From: Entomobacter blattae
GTDB lineage: Bacteria; Pseudomonadota; Alphaproteobacteria; Acetobacterales; Acetobacteraceae
Direction: 5' to 3'
Assembly (NCBI RefSeq): GCF_014672835.1
Contig: NZ_CP060244.1
Span: 1,281,001 to 1,345,000 of the forward strand
DNA: 64,000 nt
The notes beneath the pieces are model-generated. The model did no database searches. It had not been told where the DNA came from and saw only the letters and a program-made list of their open reading frames with translations. Below are positions 13,525 through 63,729 of this stretch, one piece after another. Every line of letters starts with the position of its first letter. Positions within the stretch are counted from its first letter, which is position 1. Position numbers and translations under genes: made by a program.

Positions 13525-13592
13525 ACCTCAAAGCAAGGCAGCCTCGAAGAAAAGAAACCTTAAAGCAATGAAACCCTGAAGACAAGGAAACT

Positions 13593-13619
13593 TCAAAAAA
13601 AAGGGGAGAAGCTCTCCCC
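13593..13619 (-). terminator. Intrinsic terminator of gluconokinase
   Basis: Perfect 7-bp stem ggggaga/tctcccc with AGC loop; on the minus strand it is followed by a run of eight or more T. It lies about 40 bases past the gluconokinase stop. Confidence 0.85.
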
Positions 13620-13657
13620 CTCGGGGTTTCTTGGGGGTTTTATCTAGGGGTTTTTGG

Positions 13658-14290
13658 CTAAAGGGGCAGCTTAACAGTTGCGGTAGGAGATGCGCATGCG
13701 CGATGTAAGGGGTGGTCCTGATCGCTGGTTAAAAGGCGCAGGGCCCGTAAGGCACTTTTGGCAATAGATTGCTGATCGGCCCTGACATCGAGTTCCATCA
13801 TGACTTCATCATCAGCTGGTTCCTCAAGGGTGGCAAACTGGCTATCAAGCATGCTGGCGGGCATAAAATGGCCTGTTCTGGACTGTAAGCGTGGAGCGAT
13901 ATCTTCTTTGGTGCCCTTAAGGTACAAAAAACAGACCCTGTTGCTGCCCTGGGCGATAATATCGCGGTATTTCCTTTTTAAGGCCGAGCAGGTTACAATC
14001 CCGCACTCCTTATCTTTAATCCAGTTTTGGGCAACCAGGGCAATTTTTTCCAACCAGGGTTGTCTGTCTTCGTCGTTAAGGGGGATCCCCGCGCTCATTT
14101 TGTCGATATTGGCTTTGGGGTGTAGGGCATCACCCTCTACCACAGGCCAGTGGGCTTCATTACCAATAAGTTCAGCAACGGTGGATTTTCCACACCCTGC
14201 AACACCCATAACCACCAGCACCCGGGGGGCACCAGCTTTACGAAGGGCAGTGGAGAGATGGACGAGCTTATCATTTGAATCAGGATACAT
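13658..14290 (-). CDS. gntK: Gluconokinase
   Basis: Phosphorylates D-gluconate to 6-phosphogluconate, feeding the pentose phosphate route; sensible beside a periplasmic glucose dehydrogenase that makes gluconate. The P-loop GVAGCGKST is near the N-terminus, followed by the family segments EGDALHPKANIDKMSAGIPLNDEDRQPWL and CSALKRKYRD, and the adenine-loop area RTGHFMPASMLDSQFATLE. From this ATG the product is 210 residues. The frame also opens at a TTG at 14362 that has a good GGAAGG sequence just upstream, so a start 24 codons earlier is possible. About 25 extra residues at the C-terminus are not typical. Confidence 0.9.
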   Translation of the reverse strand: MYPDSNDKLVHLSTALRKAGAPRVLVVMGVAGCGKSTVAELIGNEAHWPVVEGDALHPKANIDKMSAGIPLNDEDRQPWLEKIALVAQNWIKDKECGIVTCSALKRKYRDIIAQGSNRVCFLYLKGTKEDIAPRLQSRTGHFMPASMLDSQFATLEEPADDEVMMELDVRADQQSIAKSALRALRLLTSDQDHPLHRACASPTATVKLPL

Positions 14291-16172
14291 TTTTAACTCA
14301 ATAATTTTAAAGAAAACGAATGAAGAATGGTGGGGGGCAAGGTTAACCAAAAAATTGTGCAATCCCCTTCCTTACTTTGTCATCTATAAAGGGGAAATGG
14401 GGTAGAATGATGAGCAAGAGCAGTTATAAACACGTGCGTTTACGCCTGTTTATTCACCAGGTTGTTGCCCTGTATTGAACTTTTGGTGTGTTAGGCGGTT
14501 CCTCCCCTTTAATGGCTTTTTATAAAAAAACACAGTCTATAGGAAGTTAAAAAATGAAGTCAAAAAAAAACGCAAGAAAAAGGTGCATGATTAGAAAGAA
14601 TGATGCAAGAAGATATTTTTAATAATTCTCTTAAAGAATGCCTTATTTTACCTTCCAGAGGGATATTTTGAAAAAAACTTCAAGCCCTGTTCAAGGGAAA
14701 AATAGAGGAGAAACCTAAGGAGAAACAGAGGAGGAAAAGGGGAAGAGTGGGCAATAATAGCTGATTTATAAAGGATTTTATTGGATAGGGAAGAAGGAGT
14801 AGGTTTTTTAATAGAGGCAAATTTTTGCTCGAAAGGAAGACAGAAAAGTTTAAAAGGAGAGAGGATCAAGGATATTTTAGGAAAAAGTGGTTTGAAAAAA
14901 CTGCATAAAAATAGGGCACTCCCTTTTGGCGTTTCTTCCCTTTCCTTCCTTGTCCCTGGGTTTGGGCCTTCCTGAGTCAGGAGTCTTCCTGATTATAGAA
15001 AGCAAATTATGGAAGGCAAAAATGCTTAGAAATGGGGGAAGAACCTGCCAGGAAGGGGAAAGCTATGAGGGGCGAAACAGAAAGCGGCCTTATTAACATG
15101 GTCCTGCTAGGAATGGGAGAAACCCCGATTACGCTGGCCATTTGTTTTCTTCGCCATGGTTCTGCCAGGAACAGGGGGAAGCCTCTAGTAAGGAAGAGTT
15201 GCGCTTTGGGGGGAGAATGGTGCAGAGGCAAGGTGGGGAGAGTTTCCTCTATTACGATCATGGAGGGCTATTCCATATGGAAATAGATCTATATCGCAAT
15301 GTAGGATCTATTGGGAAATGAGGAGAGCCACCTGCATTTCTGCTTAGGAATTCCCAACCCGAGTAATTTTCACCCCTAGGAGTTCCCAACCTGAGTCATT
15401 CACCTTAGGAATTCTTAACCTCTGGAAGCCACGCTAATTTTACGAAGATGACCCGCAGGCATGACCCTCCCTTCTGAATTCTCTGACCCTCCCTTATCGC
15501 TTCTTGCACAATGACGAACACGATGACGAAATGATTTCATTCATTTTAGCGATCGAAATAAAGGTTAACGATCGAAATAAAGAAGACTGCGCTATAGGAA
15601 AGTGCAAGCAAGCCCGCAGTGATAGTATTTTTTCGTTCAGATATTGCTTACAGGAGGCGAAAATGGGGATTTGAGCGTGTATAAAGGGGGTTTGAGCATG
15701 TAAAAATAGAGAAGAAAGGGGATTATCCTACAGTCTTGGGGCTTAATAGGCGGGGTGAGATAGTGTATACTCTTTCTGATTGTATGTTCTGACTGATTAT
15801 ATGGTCTGATTGTATGGTCCTTACGACCATTATTATATTTTATTTCATGCCTAGTATGTGGGGGGCCCAGTATGCAGGCTCAATATGCAGATCTAGTGTG
15901 TGGGCCTGGTGTACGGATCCAGTGTGCGAGAGGGGGCGAAGGCAGCGGGCGGTTCACTGGTCAGGCGATTCCTCCTTACTTGGCATAGCAGTGGGCATAA
16001 CATTGGGCACAACAGGGCATTCCCGCCATACTCAAGAGGAGGGTAAGTTGAGAAAATCGGCAGGCAGCTCAGTCGTGCCATAACCGTAAACTGGCCGTAG
16101 GGCCGCCTGGTTTTTATAACGGGTTTTTATAATCTGAAAATATTGGATTCTTCCCAAATTCAGGAGATTGAT
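14291..16172. other. Long spacer, no gene recognised; degenerate repeats
   Basis: Almost 1.9 kb with only short open frames of no recognisable family. Visible structure: diverged direct repeats at about 15025-15185 (cctgccaggaa, cctgctaggaa, ctgccaggaac), a tandem gatcgaaataaag-type repeat at 15550-15590, repeats of ggaattcccaacc at 15345-15425, and a cluster of short repeats at 15850-16030. The final bases carry the AGGAG site of the mannitol dehydrogenase. Confidence 0.5.
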
Positions 16173-53402: not shown

Positions 53403-55208
53403 ATGACAAATACTCCTTTGGTGCAAATTCGTAATTTTTCCATTATTGCCCATATCGACCATGGCAAATCGACCCTGGCTGATCGGCTGATCCAGGCATG
53501 TGGGGCGTTAAGCGAGCGCGAAATGAAAAGCCAGGTGCTGGATAATATGGAGCTGGAGCGTGAACGGGGCATCACCATTAAAGCCCAGACTGTACGTCTG
53601 AACTATCCAGCCAAGGATGGTAAAACCTATGTGTTGAACCTTATGGACACCCCAGGCCATGTCGATTTTGCCTACGAGGTGAGCCGCTCTTTGGCGGCGT
53701 GTGAGGGCTCTCTTCTTGTGGTTGATGCCTCTCAAGGGGTAGAAGCCCAAACCCTGGCTAATGTCTATCAGGCCATTGATGCAAACCATGAGATTGTACC
53801 GGTGCTGAATAAGGTGGATTTACCAGCCGCAGATGTTCCCCGGGTCAAAGCCCAGATCGAGGAAGTGATAGGGATTTCCGCTGAGGATGCGGTAGAGGTT
53901 TCTGCTAAGACCGGGTTAAATATCGAAGCTGTTCTTGAGGCCCTGGTGACCCGTTTGCCGCCCCCAAAAGGGGATGATAAGGCCCCACTTAAAGCCTTGC
54001 TAGTCGATAGTTGGTATGATCCGTATCTGGGTGTTATCATCTTGGTGCGCGTAAAGGAGGGGCGCCTTAAAAAGGGGGCAAAAATCCGCATGATGTCCAA
54101 TGGGGCTGTCTATCATGTTGACCAGCTCGGCGTGTTTTTACCCCATATGACGCAGGTTGATGATTTGGGCCCCGGGGAAATGGGCTATATTAATGCTGCC
54201 ATTAAAACCGTAGCAGACTGTAATGTAGGGGACACCATAACCGAGGAGAACAAACCGGCTGCCGAGCCCTTGGCAGGGTTTAAACCTTCTGTGCCAGTGG
54301 TCTGGTGTGGCCTTTACCCCGTCAATGCCGATGATTTTGAAAAACTGCGTGATAGTCTGGCCAAGCTGCGTTTAAATGATGCCTCCTTCCATTATGAAAC
54401 AGAAACCTCGGCAGCGCTGGGTTTTGGTTTTCGCTGTGGCTTTTTGGGGCTTCTCCATCTGGAAATTATTCAGGAGCGCTTAAGCCGAGAATTTAACCTC
54501 GATCTTATTGCTACCGCTCCTTCTGTGGTGTACCATCTTTTTCGCAGTAATGGCGGTATGGAAGAACTGCACAACCCCGCCGATATGCCGGATGGCTCTG
54601 TGATTGAACGTATAGAAGAGCCCTGGATTAAGGCCACCATTATGGTGCCCGATGAGTATTTGGGGGCTGTTCTGGCCTTGTGTACCGAGCGGCGCGGCCA
54701 GCAGGAAGATTTAACGTATGTGGGCAATCGGGCGATGGCCGTCTATCGTCTTCCCCTTAACGAAGTGGTGTTTGACTTTTATGACCGGCTAAAGTCTGCT
54801 ACCCGGGGCTATGCCAGCTTTGACTATCAGATGGATGGCTATGAGGAAAGCGATCTGGTAAAAATCTCCATTCTAGTTAATCAGGAACCCGTGGATGCAT
54901 TAGCCTTTGTCGCTCATCGTTCTGTGGCGGAAACGCGGGGAAGGGCCATTTGTGCCCGACTTAAGGAGCTCATCCCTAGGCAGCTGTTTAAAATTGCCAT
55001 TCAGGCGGCGATTGGTAGCCGTGTTATTGCGCGCGAAACCATTGGGGCCCTTTCTAAAGATGTAACCGCTAAATGCTATGGGGGTGATATTTCCCGTAAG
55101 CGTAAATTGCTCGAAAAACAAAAAGAGGGCAAAAAGCGGATGCGCCAGTTTGGTAAGGTGGAAATTCCCCAAAGTGCCTTTTTAGCTGCTTTGAAGATGG
55201 ATAAATAA
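53403..55208 (+). CDS. lepA: Elongation factor 4 (LepA)
   Basis: A 601-residue translational GTPase that acts on the ribosome under ionic stress. G1 reads AHIDHGKST, followed by DTPGHVDF and NKVD; the EF-G-like domains and the lysine-rich LepA C-terminus ([17 protein letters not shown]) are intact. The ATG at 53403 gives the family N-terminus; the frame opens 16 codons earlier. A terminator follows. A near-identical copy of its last 110 bp occurs beyond the tRNA-Ser gene. Confidence 0.97.
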
Positions 55209-55229: not shown

Positions 55230-55263
55230 CCCCCCTCCTTACAAGGCTTGAAGGGGGTTTTTT
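55230..55263 (+). terminator. Intrinsic terminator of lepA
   Basis: A cccccct/agggggg stem with a 17-nt region between, followed by TTTTTT, 22 bp past lepA. Confidence 0.85.
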
Positions 55264-55609
55264 GATGCGTGGTTTTGGTGAAGAGAATTTTCAAACGGCC
55301 TTTGACCGATCCTTTGGCTGATACTGCACAATTTAAATCTTCCTCATCACTTGGGGCGTCCCCAATAATCAGAATTTTTGGATGGGTGGGGGTGGCAGGC
55401 AGAATGGCGACAACAGTATGGGTTGCCGTTTCCGAGAGTGGGCAGAACGATGAGGTAGGAAGAAAGGCCAGGAGGGCCTCTGGTGTTTCAAATTTTTGGG
55501 CCAGGGTTATGGCTTGTTGGATAGGCAGTGTTGAGGGTGAAGAGGGTAGGGGCGAAAGGGGTTGGGCAGGACTGGTTGGGGAAGAGGAGAGTGTGCGTTT
55601 TTGTTTCAA
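55264..55609 (-). pseudogene. Relic of a family 4/5 uracil-DNA glycosylase N-terminus
   Basis: The minus strand reads CPLSETATHTVVAILPATP then PKILIIGDAPSDEEDL. The family pattern is CxLxxTAT..VF..G.P..PVMLVGEAPGxEEDxxGxPFVGxxG. The glycine-rich active-site follow-on is replaced by unrelated sequence after DEEDL, and the catalytic domain is absent; the open frame then runs antisense into lepA. The upstream part holds short repeats (TTYHKFTT). I read this as a decayed gene. Confidence 0.6.
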
Positions 55610-55936: not shown

Positions 55937-56026
55937 GGAGAGATGGCCGAGCGGCTTAAGGCGCACGCTTGGAAAGCGTGTGTACGTGCAAGCGTACCGT
56001 GGGTTCGAATCCCACTCTCTCCGCCA
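55937..56026 (+). tRNA. tRNA-Ser (anticodon GGA)
   Basis: A 90-nt serine tRNA. Acceptor GGAGAGA pairs with TCTCTCC; the anticodon loop is cttggaaag giving GGA; a long variable arm has the stem gtacg/cgtac; the T arm reads gtgggttcgaatcccac; CCA is encoded. It borders the AT-rich island, a common position for integration. Confidence 0.97.
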
Positions 56027-56116
56027 GAAATTCCATATATTTTATTAAGATATAACAGTTTTTTATGTGGAATATCTATCTGGCCACTTTCTAGTCACGA
56101 CAAAAACGTCTCTAAT

Positions 56117-56320
56117 ATCTCTTATAAGCGTAAATTGCTGGAAAAACAAAAAGAGGGCAAAAAGCGGATGCGCCAGTTTGGTAAGGTAGAAATTCCCCAA
56201 AGTGCCTTTTTAGCTGCTTTGAAGATCCTCTCCCTAGCTCCTAGGTATAAATCTCCCCTTACAAGGCTTGTGATGGGGGTTTCTGATGCGTGATTTTGGT
56301 GAAGAGACTTTTCAAATACT
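56117..56320 (+). pseudogene. Echo copy of the lepA 3' end and terminator
   Basis: Matches 55086-55297: the lepA C-terminal codons with only a few changes up to gctttgaagat, then, more diverged, the terminator region (cttacaaggctt) and the following tgatgcgtgattttggtgaa. It lies just after tRNA-Ser, so lepA tail, glycosylase relic and tRNA are bracketed by the two copies. Confidence 0.92.
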
Positions 56321-56701: not shown

Positions 56702-59700
56702 CTAAATACTGCCACCAACCCCTTTAAATCTTTCAATAAATGAAGAAATTTTTTGGAAAACTGTTTGTTTTTTAGTTAAATATTGTGGATGAAGAGGGCT
56801 CATTTGAGGTAATATCTCATTGAGCTCTATACCGTTCTCGCTAGCATATTCCTGCTTTAACGATGTGGCAAGATAACGTTTTGCAGCTTGCTCTTTTAAG
56901 TTTTCCGAAGCAATAAGCGCTTGAGCTTCTCGTTGTTGTTCTTTTTGTGCGTAGGTGAAGAAGGCCTCAATAATACTGGCTGTATCAGAGATATGATCCA
57001 AATTGGTTTTATCGATAAAATCAACCACAAGACTTTCCTTGGCACGACTACCAAGGCTTGTACGAATAAGTCGTTTGGCTTCTTCTATTAAGGCAGGTTT
57101 GTCTTTGGCTTTTTTATGGTGCTCAAAGATAAGCTCTAGAATATAATCAAGGCTTATTTCCTGAGATTTGAGAAGTTCTACTTCAAAAACCACATCATTC
57201 CAATCTATTTTTGATTTGTCTTGATCGTTATTGGATTTTTGAGATCTAATCCAGCCGCGAACATCATGATAGGTTGAACGATAATCCTGAATAATACGTG
57301 CAGAAGGCACATTAATAGAGTGCATCTCTCTTAATTCTGCCTCAGTCAGGTTATGCTTTTCTTTAAAGGCTTCAACCGCTTGAACATTGGTTTGGTCTAT
57401 ATTTTGTAAAGCTTGCAAGGTGGTAAATTCATCATAATTTTGCAGAATATTTTCGATGCGTAAATACTCACCAAACAATTTTGCAAAATCTTTCTTATCC
57501 AGCTCTTTCGCGATTTTATCGGTATTGGGGAAACGACTTTGCAGCTCTTTTATAATTTCCAGATAGCCACGTTGAGTTTCTTGTGTAAGATTATCGGTAA
57601 ATCCTTGCATATATTCGGTATAACTCTTCTCAAGCACAACGTTTTTTGTGTGTTTATCACCAAACAGAGTAATGGCCTCTATTGTTGCCTGCTCTAGGTC
57701 ACGAAAAGTTATGATGTTGCCAAAGCTTTTAGTTGAATCATAAATGCGGTTGGTACGAGAATAAGCTTGAATAAGGCCGTGATAGCGCAAATTTTTATCA
57801 ACAAATAAAGTATTCAAGGTTGGGGCATCAAACCCCGTTAAAAACATTCCCACAACAATTAGTAAATCGACTTCTTGATTTCTAACCCGTTTGGAAAGAT
57901 CGCGGTAATAATTTTGAAATTCCTTACTTTCTAAGCTGAAATTTGTTTTGAACTGGGCGTTATAATCCTGAATGGCAGCAGCCAAAAACTCCTTTGCAGA
58001 TTGGTTCATTGCAGTGGGTTCAAAGGTTTCATCAGCAATTTCGCCTATAGCACCTTGTTTTTCATTGGCTGTCTCTTCTCCGATCTTTTGTTCTTCATTG
58101 GCTGCGAAGGAGAAAATAGTGGCAATTTTTAATGGGTTTTTACTGTTTTCCTGCTGTTTTTTTATCTCTTCATAATACAGTTTAGCAGCATCCACACTGC
58201 TGACAGCAAACATGGCGTTAAAGCCTTTATTATTTGCCAGACGATGTGTTTTCTGGCGGAAGTTATTTAAAATATAGCGCGTTACCTCCTTTATCCGTTC
58301 CGGATGGAGTAAGGCTTGTTTATTTTCCGAAGCGGTCAATTTTTTTTCATCAATCTCTGTTTCCAGCATTTTAAACTGAGGACGGACATTGTGGTAATCG
58401 ACTTTGAATTTCAAAACCTTTTCATCTCGAATAGCATCTGTAATTACGTAAGAGTGGAGTTCGCGCCCAAACACACTTTGTGTTGTTTCAGTCCCCAAAG
58501 CGTTTTGCGGAAAGATGGGCGTACCCGTAAACCCAAACTGATAAAAACTTTTAAACTTTCTGTGGATATTTTCTTGTGCTTTCCCAAATTGGGAGCGATG
58601 GGCCTCGTCAAAGATAAAAACAACCTGCTTGTTATAAACAGCGAGGTTATTTTCCCTTTTAATGAGATGATTCAACTTCTGAATAGTTGTAACAATAATT
58701 TTGTTATCATCTTTTTCTATATTTTCTTTAAGGCCAGCCGTATCGTTTGAGCCATTAACACTTTCTGGAGAAAAGCGCTGATATTCTTTGATTGTTTGAT
58801 AATCAAGGTCTTTACGATCAACCACAAAGAAGACTTTATCAATAAAATCTAACTCTGTGGCTAGGCGTGCTGCCTTAAAGCTGGTTAAGGTTTTGCCTGA
58901 GCCTGTTGTATGCCAAATAAACCCACCCCCTTCGGGCCTATTCCAGCTTTTGGTTTGATAAGAGCTTTTAATTTTTTGTAAAATGCGTTCTGTTGCAGCA
59001 ATTTGATAGGGACGCATAACCAGCAATATGTTACGCGTGTCAAACACCGTATAGGTAAATAAGATTTGTAAAAGCGTATTTTTTTGAAAGAAGGTTTTAG
59101 TAAAATCTTTTAAATCTTTAATCACCGTATTATCAGCACGGGCCCAGTTCATGGTAAAATCGAAACTATTTTTATCACGTTTGGTTGTATTGGCAAAATA
59201 GCGGGTATCTGTTCCATTGGAGATAACAAAAACCTGCAAATATTTAAACAGCGAATGTTCGGTATTAAAACTTTCTTTGCTATAACGATGAATTTGATTA
59301 AAAGCTTCACGAATGGCAACACCACGCTTTTTTAATTCAACCTGTACGATAGGTAAACCGTTGACTAAAATGGTTACGTCATATCTGTTGGTATAGGCCC
59401 CTTTTTGTTCAAACTGCTTTAGAACTTGCACAGTATTACGAGCAATATTCTTTTTATCGATCAGAAAGATATTTTGAATATGCCCATCGTCAAAGGTAAA
59501 ATCATAGATGTAATGATCATGAAGCTTGCGGGTTTTATCAATAATGCTATCCCCAGGCCTATCGAGATATTCCTCTAGAAAGCGTTGCCATTCCCCATCT
59601 GAGAACTGAACATTATTGAGACTTTGTACCTGTTGGCGTGCATTTGCCAATAATTGTGCTGGTGTAGAATTGGGTAAGGCCTCATATCCCTGATTTTTCA

Positions 59701-59830
59701 GATCTTTGGTAAACTCTTGTTCTAAATCAGCTTCCGTTTGATAGGAGCTATCGAGCGGTTCCATTTTGGTATATTGATCAAGAACAATATAATTTTGCGT
59801 TTCGGCAAGAACAGTTGTTGCAAAATTCAT
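56702..59830 (-). CDS. hsdR: Type I restriction endonuclease subunit R (type IC-like)
   Basis: A 1042-residue motor and nuclease subunit. The N-terminal nuclease core shows D and ELK ([19 protein letters not shown], about 150-170). Superfamily 2 helicase motifs follow: HTTGSGKT near 308, [10 protein letters not shown] near 410, and later motifs including [13 protein letters not shown]. The C-terminal third is helical and ends in the HsdM/S-contact region. The gene is the last of hsdM-hsdS-prrC-hsdR, 32 bp after the nuclease gene. Codon third positions are AT-rich compared with the housekeeping genes, consistent with transfer. Confidence 0.95.
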
Positions 59831-59862
59831 TTTTTATCTTTCTGCGGGTAAATTTCATCTTC

Positions 59863-60930
59863 CTACTGATAAAATTTATATTGATCGACTAAATGCTTAA
59901 ATAAAAATGCTACAGTTTTTAGCTCAGGCGGGGTTGGTTCAGCAATCGTTTCATTTGATAATGTTGAGTGGCTCGTAAAATGAATAATACGCGTCAAATA
60001 TAACCGTTTGTCATCTGGCAATAATTCCCCCCACTTCTTATAGCCAAGAAAGGCTGCTGTTTTTTCATATAAGTTACGCAAAAGTGTAAAATGATATTTT
60101 TGAATATTCTTTTGCTCAATAGCTTCTGCCAGCGTTTGCTTCAAAAATAAATGATATGAAAAACTTCTGTTTGAATCTTCTGGTTTTTCTTCCAACTCCA
60201 ATGTTCCATCTTCATTGGCTTTTAGCATAGAAGAGGAGGATTTTTTTCGATCACTTTCATTATATAAAACATTATAAAATAAGGGATTATGAGTTGTAAC
60301 AATAAACTTTACCTGGGTTGTACTTGATTTAATTAACTGAGCTAAATCTACTGCCAGTTCTATCAAGTGGTTTTCATCGAGTGAACTTACTGGATCATCA
60401 ATAAATATATATTTTAAATCATCATATTCCTGTGTAGAGCGCTCTTCTTTGGGCTCATTAAGCTCTGATATCACTTGCTGTATCAGTGCATAAAATATGC
60501 TCCATACAAAACTCCTTTCTTCACCTTTTGAAATTTTAATATTTTCTAGCAATTGTTTATCTATATCCGTAACTGAAAAAGTTACAGCAGAAAAATCTTC
60601 GCTAAATTGTGGAGTTAATTTTTCGCCGGCATAACGTTGAAAATACTTAACAATATTTCGGTCTTGACCTTCATCACGAAGTATCCAACTTATAAGAGAG
60701 TTTTCCTGAATTTTTAACTTATATTCGCCTTCACAACTATTATTCAAGTAAAACAAATCTTCCGTAAAGGCATTATAATATAACATTTTCTTTCGTGTTG
60801 GTTTTTCAAATAAATTCTGAAATTCATACGATAGACGCGTTTTGCCTGTACCATTAAAAGCATAAATCAATTGCATTTTTTTATCGCATTTTTGAAGATT
60901 TTGTGCGACTTCCCTAAGTGTTTTTCCCAT
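59863..60930 (-). CDS. prrC: PrrC-like anticodon nuclease (ABC-ATPase-linked)
   Basis: A 355-residue protein with an ABC-type ATPase half: Walker A FNGTGKT at about 25-31, signature KISKGEERSF near 133-142, Walker B YIFIDDPVSSLDENH near 174-188, H-loop TTHN. The C-terminal part carries R285, E289 and H321, with exactly the spacing of the Arg320-Glu324-His356 triad of E. coli PrrC, which cleaves tRNA-Lys in the anticodon loop when phage inhibit the linked EcoprrI enzyme. Location between hsdS and hsdR repeats the prr order. Many relatives are annotated only as AAA ATPase; the tRNA target is unknown. Start at the MGKTL methionine, right after the hsdS stop. Confidence 0.75.
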   Translation of the reverse strand: MGKTLREVAQNLQKCDKKMQLIYAFNGTGKTRLSYEFQNLFEKPTRKKMLYYNAFTEDLFYLNNSCEGEYKLKIQENSLISWILRDEGQDRNIVKYFQRYAGEKLTPQFSEDFSAVTFSVTDIDKQLLENIKISKGEERSFVWSIFYALIQQVISELNEPKEERSTQEYDDLKYIFIDDPVSSLDENHLIELAVDLAQLIKSSTTQVKFIVTTHNPLFYNVLYNESDRKKSSSSMLKANEDGTLELEEKPEDSNRSFSYHLFLKQTLAEAIEQKNIQKYHFTLLRNLYEKTAAFLGYKKWGELLPDDKRLYLTRIIHFTSHSTLSNETIAEPTPPELKTVAFLFKHLVDQYKFYQ

Positions 60931-60931
60931 T

Positions 60932-62173
60932 CTAAGCACCCTCATTATTTGAAGGAAAATCTAAGAGCTGCGCACGGTAATATTCATATTGCTTCTGGCG
61001 TAGGGCAATCTCTCGGGGTAAGCCCTGCGTAATGGAATGGGTCAACATATCGAATTTGTCCAGAATAGAGACGATACGCTCTTGCTCTGAGAGCGGAGGA
61101 ATGGGGATAAGAATTTTTGACATATCTGATGCAGACACATCGATAACTTTTGTTCCTTTTGCATATTTTCTTTTCTCATTTGCAAAAGTTTGTGTTTGTG
61201 AAAAATATACAAAATATTTTCCCAAAATTTGTTTGCTTGGCTTAAAAATAGAGGCATGCCCGCCTGTAACAGCTTGTCTTTTCCCAAGGTAAACCATTGC
61301 CTTACCCACATCGTCAAGATTTTCACTGGTGTTTGTTATGACGACATCCCCAGTTTCGACCTTTTTTAATTTTTCAGCCAATTGTGGGGAAACAAAAGAC
61401 TTTGTTTCCACTGTGGATAAACCATAATATGTATAAATTTGCCCATAATGAATGGCCGGTACTCCGGTTTCAGTGAAGTCTTTCTTTTGTAAACCATTTC
61501 CACGGATAAACTGCCCCATTTCTCCCAAAGTTTTCCATTCGGCTTCACCTTCTTTAAAGGTCAGTAATTTATCACGATAATAGTTGTATTGTTTTTTACG
61601 TGCGGTAAGCTCTGCGGTAAGCCTAGCTGTAAGCTCTGCGGTAAGGGCCGTAAATTTATCCAGAATTTCTACAATTTCAGTTTGCACAGATAAGGGAGGG
61701 ATAGGGATAAGAATTTTAGCAAGACTATCTTTTGAAATACGTCGTACCTTGGTCCCGCTAATATATTTTTTCTTTTGTCTTTTAAACGTTTCTGTGAGAA
61801 AATAATAAGCTAAATATTTAACATTCTGACTATGTCTAAATAGCATCATGTCTCCGGATATTGCAGCTTTTTTACCAAACCATGCAACAGGTTTTAAAAC
61901 ATCGTCATCATTTTCTGAAGTAGTTGTAATCAAGAGGTCATTCTTATAAGCAATTTTCAGTTTTTCAGCCAATTGTGGTGAAACAAAAGACTTTGTTTCC
62001 ACTGTAGATAAACCATAATAAGTATAAATCTGCCCATAATGAATGGCAGGCACACCGGTTTCGGTAAAGTCTTTCTTTTGTAAACCATTACCACGGATTA
62101 ATTGCCCCACTTCTCCCAATGGTTTCCATTCTACCTCTGTACCCTTCAGAAGCTTTTGTATGATAGGGTTCAT
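60932..62173 (-). CDS. hsdS: Type I specificity subunit S with duplicated TRD halves
   Basis: A 413-residue DNA-recognition subunit with two target recognition domains (about 14-165 and 210-365), each followed by a coiled-coil helix. The first 57 residues of both TRDs are nearly identical (shared [20 protein letters not shown] and [15 protein letters not shown]), while their second halves differ. The central helix has four tetrapeptide units [16 protein letters not shown], the TAEL repeat of type IC enzymes such as EcoR124, where copy number sets the spacer length of the target. Overlaps hsdM by ATGA. Confidence 0.95.
61602..61649. repeat. 12-bp TAEL repeat in hsdS, 4 units
   Basis: Units gcggtaagctct, gcggtaagccta, gctgtaagctct, gcggtaagggcc. 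Gain or loss of a unit adds or removes four residues in frame. Confidence 0.93.
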
Positions 62174-63729
62174 GCTTCGATGTCCGTAATCAAGTTATCA
62201 ATCTGCGCGCGTAAAATGTTTATTTTTTCTACCGTGGTTTTTATTTCTGCATTCAGTTCTGTAATATTAATTACTTCCCTTGTGTCTTCTGCCTCTACAT
62301 AGGAACTTACGGACAGATTATAGTTATTGGCTTGTATCTGCTTGTTATCAACGAGTTGGGCAAAATGCTTAATATCTATTTTATCGTCAAAGGCGGTAAT
62401 AATTTTTTCAATATGCTCAGCCGTTAAAACGTTATTATTCGTTTCTTTTTTGAATAATTTACTGGCATCGATAAATTGCGTTTTATAGTGGGTTTTATGT
62501 TTGGAAAGCACCAGAATATTGACCGCAATAGAGGTTCCGTAAAACAAATTGGGGGCCAGGGCGATCACTGTTTCAACGTAATTATAGTTAATAAGATACT
62601 GGCGAATTTTCTGTTCTGCTCCAGTACGATAAAAAATTCCAGGGAAACAGACGATGGCGGCACGTCCCTTGGGGGATAAATAATGAAGAGCATGAAGGAC
62701 AAAGGCAAAATCTGCCTTAGATTTGGGGGCTAATACACTTGCTGGGGCAAAACGTTCATCATTAATAAGAATTGGATTATCGCTTCCTTCCCAGTTGATT
62801 GAATAAGGTGGGTTGGAAACGATAACATCAAAGGGCCGCTCGTTGTTATGTTTGGGGTCTATTAACGTATTGCCCAAGGCTATATCGAATTTGGTGTAAT
62901 TGATATTGTGCAAAAACATATTCATACGGGCAAGGTTATAGGTTGTATGGTTTATTTCTTGGCCGAAAAACCCTTTTTCAATCGTATGGCCGTTTGTATG
63001 GAGGATATCGAACTGTTTTTTTACTTGCAAAAGAAGTGAACCAGACCCCGCAGCTGGATCGTACGCCTTGTTCACCTCATCTTGTTTGTGCAAAGCCAGC
63101 AGGGCAATTAGCTTTGAGACATGTTGGGGGGTAAAGAATTCTCCCCCTGATTTACCAGCATTGGCTGCATAATTAGAAATAAGAAACTCATACGCATCGC
63201 CAAACAGATCGATATGATTATCTTCAAACTTGCCAAAATCAAGGTCGGCGACCCCTTTGAGCACAGCTGTCAAACGTTTGTTTTTTTCTGCAACTGTGTT
63301 GCCAAGCCGGTTGCTGGTGGTATCAAAATCAGCAAATAAGCCCTTGATATCATCTTCAGAGGGGTGGCCATTTGCTGAGCTTTCAATATCTGAAAATATC
63401 TGTTTCAGGTCGGTATTGAGGTTTTCGTTATTATTGGCTTTTTCCACAATATTTTCAAATAATTGGCTGGGGTAGATGATATAGCCTTTACTTTTAATGG
63501 CATCTTCCTTACGCTCTGGCGTAATCACATCATCGGTCATGTCAGCGTAATGAATTGTTTCATCACCCGCTTCGATATAATTTTTGAAATTTTCACTTAT
63601 AAAACGATAAAAGAGTGTACCAAGAACATATTGCTTGAAATCCCAGCCATCGACTGAGCCACGTACCTCATTGGCAATTTGCCAAATTCTGCGATGGAGC
63701 TCAGTGCGTTGCTGTGTAGTGGAGGCCAT
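62170..63729 (-). CDS. hsdM: Type I methyltransferase subunit M
   Basis: A 519-residue N6-adenine methyltransferase. The SAM-binding motif I reads [13 protein letters not shown] near residue 225, and the catalytic motif IV is NPPYSINW near 305. The N-terminal helical HsdM domain starts [35 protein letters not shown]. First gene of the operon, AAAGGA upstream of the ATG. With HsdS it modifies the target; with HsdR it makes the restriction complex. Confidence 0.97.

Follow-up and report, generated by a model that had tools for sequence, protein, structure and literature searches.

The 64,000-nucleotide stretch analysed here, referred to as the window, raises the question whether the gene that lies between a restriction specificity gene and a restriction subunit gene, prrC (59863..60930, - strand), encodes an anticodon nuclease that could provide a second layer of defence. 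Such a second layer is the published model for the PrrC family (PMC3014915, PMC3874165), and the sequence-only reading had proposed it for this locus. We found that prrC is a further member of this already known defence family. We place the probability at roughly 85% that its product is orthologous to E. coli PrrC and acts on tRNA-Lys(UUU) under Hsd control, with cleavage and control carried over from the family.

The prrC open reading frame spans 59863-60945 on the - strand and contains an in-frame ATG at 60945 and a second ATG at 60930. The second start gives a protein of 355 aa and matches where E. coli PrrC begins (MGKTL...). This protein combines an N-terminal ABC-type NTPase with a C-terminal HEPN-class RNase, and a whole-genome search found it in single copy, with no second such gene in the 2.70-Mb genome. 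In a profile search, the PADLOC PrrC model matched residues 3-354 (E = 1.2e-132) and Pfam AAA_13 matched at 6.3e-13; NCBIfam returned no matching PrrC model. Over its full length the product is 57% identical to PrrC of the E. coli prr locus (WP_097331719.1, plasmid NZ_CP116245.1, 396 aa), which served as our reference. Since the PADLOC match covers the full length, the earlier assignment to the PrrC type is beyond doubt; the spacing of the catalytic residues is weak evidence by itself, as R-x3-E-x31-H arises in 2.4% of shuffles of the protein. The AlphaFold model of the product has a mean pLDDT of 82, and its NTPase part resembles SMC/Rad50/PtuA heads. A fold search with this model returned the shared ATPase head alone (TM <= about 0.4) and gave no guidance on the nuclease part, while a sequence search for solved structures gave none at E <= 10 with the single protein and chance-level matches with a profile. 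We also considered whether prrC ends in a premature stop, as read-through of the TAG adds a short tail up to the hsdR start. Truncation was ruled out because tail length at the C-terminus differs between family members and proteins of the nearest clade stop at the same place.

Alignment to PrrC bears directly on the catalytic triad that had been proposed from its spacing, a triad out of register having been named as the refuting outcome. R285 and E289 (codons within 60064..60078, - strand) and H321 (59968..59970, - strand) fell exactly in register with E. coli R320, E324 and H356, each with an offset of 35. The reference carries R, E, H, D and D at residues 320, 324, 356, 287 and 222, which fits the published numbering (PMC2610378, PMC3014915). 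R285, E289 and H321 are invariant across the 90 aligned sequences, as are Lys30 of Walker A and Asp185 of the D-loop, and the NTPase motifs of the product are complete (QLIYAFNGTGKTR, KISKGEE, FIDDPVSSLDENH and TTHNP).

We found that hsdM (62170-63729), hsdS (60932-62173), prrC and hsdR (56702-59830) are transcribed in this order, all intact and all on the - strand, so that the claimed correspondence with the E. coli prr locus holds. A single base separates the hsdS stop from the prrC ATG, a spacing shared with the loci of E. coli and Azotobacter. The hsdM product is a type I N6-adenine methyltransferase of 519 aa (TIGR00497, 1.4e-198) with intact DPAAGSG and NPPY motifs. The hsdS product is a type IC specificity subunit of 413 aa (Methylase_S, 2.8e-35) with two similar target-recognition halves and TAEL-type repeats in its central helix, which belong to the long class among homologues. 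The type I restriction/translocase subunit encoded by hsdR (1042 aa; TIGR00348, 1e-193; EcoR124_C, 6.1e-64) retains TGSGKT, DEAH and D151/E165/K167, which we take to be the nuclease positions of EcoR124I, and this hsdR is the sole one matched in the genome at E <= 0.001. Identity to the counterparts in the E. coli prr locus is 71% for HsdR and 74% for HsdM, compared to 27-30% over short stretches for EcoKI. TAEL repeats in HsdS are a type IC feature that sets gap length (PMC3874165). Given EcoR124_C, the intact motifs, the prr-locus identities and the TAEL repeats, the system is of type IC, as had been suggested, and is predicted to be functional. The intact hsd motifs bear on prrC since PrrC orthologues were found to be active except when tied to a cryptic restriction-modification system (PMC3874168).

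Several features mark the surroundings of these genes. The GC content of individual genes in the hsd-prrC island (56702-63729) is 32-40%, compared to 50-53% for the neighbouring lepA and pheT, which is consistent with horizontal acquisition. The 3' end of lepA and the bases that follow it are duplicated approximately 1 kb downstream (55087-55198 and 56115-56226, 95%; 55254-55295 and 56275-56316, 90%). These duplicates flank tRNA-Ser(GGA) (55937-56026) and may be the trace of an old integration or duplication beside the island. Approximately 14 kb past the right end of the window lies a phage-type tyrosine integrase (13555-14565 of locus L021), followed by prophage-like genes. Within hsdS, a 178-bp direct repeat (61363-61540 and 61954-62131, 90% identical) covers the start of TRD1 and TRD2; its sequence suggests recent gene conversion and related half-sites.

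We asked which tRNA the product might recognise. Residues 249-259 (KPEDSNRSFSY; 60154..60186, - strand) correspond to KYGDSNKSFSY, residues 284-294 of E. coli PrrC, which form the tRNA-Lys recognition stretch and include Asp287, a residue implicated in wobble base contact (PMC3014915). Eight of the 11 positions are identical, with DSN, SFSY and the counterpart of Asp287 (Asp252) retained. The anticodon loop of the host tRNA-Lys(UUU), CTTTTAA, is identical to that of E. coli. Since the loop is identical, the recognition stretch and Asp252 are kept, and a PrrC of far greater divergence targets tRNA-Lys (discussed below), tRNA-Lys(UUU) is the likely substrate. Thus a substrate that the sequence-only reading had described as unknown is narrowed by homology to one tRNA, while cleavage itself we infer. 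MnmA and MnmE scored over the cut-off in the host genome, which also speaks for this substrate. Nothing scored over the cut-off for MnmC, whose profile also matches generic oxidoreductases; MnmC is likely absent, short of proof. Because MnmC was not found over the cut-off, cmnm5s2U may occupy the wobble position in place of mnm5s2U, the form preferred by E. coli PrrC; we counted this, together with the presence of a tRNA-Lys(CUU) in the host, against the preferred reading.

By analogy with the family, the HsdR2M2S complex would keep PrrC silent (PMC3014915). A phage anti-restriction factor that blocks the Hsd enzyme on unmodified DNA would free PrrC, and NTP hydrolysis would unmask its nuclease. 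PrrC would then cut host tRNA-Lys(UUU) within its anticodon loop, on the 5' side of the wobble base, so that translation halts and the infection is aborted. We found no RtcB in the genome, which we counted in favour of the PrrC reading.

Relatives were gathered with short peptide patterns taken from the prrC product, so the sample is biased towards it. In 76 of the 89 related loci, the prrC relative is preceded by hsdM and hsdS and followed by hsdR, all on one strand; of the 13 others, 12 are incomplete at a contig or sequence end, and the last is a distant relative (30% identical). No annotated phage matched the product, and 14 IMG/VR contigs contain prr relatives. In many relatives prrC and hsdR are separated by a further gene, about 280-360 aa long and by inspection RhuM-like or of another kind (loci L081, L064, L073, L076, L063, L087 and L089); no such gene is present within the window. 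A link between PrrC and RhuM has been noted earlier (PMC3710099). In a quick tree, the sister group of the product (SH-aLRT 90) comes from the bee-gut bacteria Gilliamella, Snodgrassella and Apibacter, and the terminal branch of the product is 0.55, compared to a median of 0.09. We considered relaxed selection on prrC and rejected it, since regression of PrrC divergence on hsdM/hsdR divergence placed the gene among those slower than most (residual -0.033, rank 57 of 73).

The most conserved PrrC-specific block of the family, FTEDLFYWDND, is probably the 'PrrC Box' of the literature, a 15-residue motif of the N-domain. In the prrC product this block is present and reads FTEDLFYLNNS, with Trp93 replaced by Leu and Asp96 by Ser (E. 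coli numbering). Across 99 columns conserved at 95% or more, the product deviates at three, two of which fall inside this block. Codon 62 (60745..60747, - strand) is TTG, a single-base step from TGG. All 110 relatives examined carry Trp93 (each of the 89 other sequences in the alignment and, by motif, seven further genomes and 14 viral contigs), and it is kept even in relatives that are 30% identical. Because the Trp is kept so uniformly, altered or attenuated activity is possible.

Two alternatives concern what the protein is and what it cuts. An RloC-type or other ABC-HEPN protein merely placed in a restriction-modification operon would share the ABC NTPase and the Arg-x3-Glu...His RNase with the prrC product, and RloC linked to restriction-modification is known (PMC2610378). 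However, RloC proteins have 658-897 aa and a coiled-coil/zinc-hook insert (PMC2610378), whereas the 355-aa product contains neither such an insert nor a CXXC hook; its Glu and His are 32 residues apart, as in PrrC, compared to x36-52 in RloC, and PrrC is by far the best PADLOC model. Length, spacing and the missing insert thus exclude an RloC-type protein for practical purposes. A different target in this lineage, such as tRNA-Lys(CUU) or another tRNA, would fit the three differing positions of the recognition stretch. The host also encodes tRNA-Lys(CUU), which to our knowledge E. coli lacks. In addition, a review describes variation in the recognition region between PrrC proteins and notes that their substrates may differ as well (PMC3014915). 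Against this, DSN, SFSY and the Asp287 counterpart are retained, the UUU anticodon loop is unchanged, and tRNA-Lys is still the target of PrrC170, which shares 35% identity with E. coli PrrC (PMC11555353), so we regard another target as quite improbable. The presence of two lysine tRNAs means that discrimination between isoacceptors by PrrC can be asked in one cell.

The other two alternatives start from the altered block. Trp93->Leu and Asp96->Ser might harm the NTPase head or the contact with Hsd, in which case prrC would be hypomorphic or inert and simply carried along by a restriction system that works. The fixation of Trp in 110 relatives, distant ones included, the one-base step from TGG and the long terminal branch speak for such a loss; on the other hand, the reading frame and all catalytic and NTP-binding motifs are intact, overall PrrC divergence is no higher than hsdM and hsdR predict, and the short C-terminus is common to the nearest clade and hence no sign of decay. 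We consider attenuation unlikely, though it deserves more weight than any other alternative. Alternatively, the rewritten YWDND block (YLNNS) might be a functional change rather than decay, with NTP gating or HsdR contact altered. This seems to us a slim prospect; if true, this PrrC would differ in latency or trigger from every other member of the family that we examined. A natural variant at a position otherwise fixed in the relatives examined offers a direct way to test what the PrrC-specific block does. Our preferred reading remains an orthologue of E. coli PrrC that acts on tRNA-Lys(UUU) under Hsd control.

Among known systems, E. coli PrrC (EcoprrI, prr locus) is like the present protein in the hsdM-hsdS-prrC-hsdR order, the one-base hsdS/prrC junction, the triad, the NTPase motifs and the recognition stretch. 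The two differ in length, the prrC product being 41 residues shorter owing to linkers near the N-terminus that are 16 and 15 residues shorter and to a shorter tail, and in the two substitutions of the conserved block. Furthermore, a 32-base gap separates prrC from hsdR in the window, whereas the two genes overlap by 8 bases in the E. coli prr locus. The reference E. coli locus (L002, NZ_CP116245.1) is carried by an IncY plasmid that also has genes for a phage repressor and a terminase (i.e., a phage-plasmid). PrrC proteins of Gilliamella, Snodgrassella and Apibacter are 59-62% identical to the product, similarly compact (about 366-370 aa) with a short C-terminus, and encoded in the same operon; however, all of them keep the Trp, and their clade crosses phyla while the prrC product stands alone on its long branch. 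PrrC170 of Klebsiella quasipneumoniae, likened here through its published description, is likewise a PrrC with an associated type I restriction-modification system; it acts against T1 and T7, specifically targets tRNA-Lys and is 35% identical to E. coli PrrC (PMC11555353). To these systems the window adds a prr locus from a new lineage, located on the chromosome and paired with an intact restriction system.
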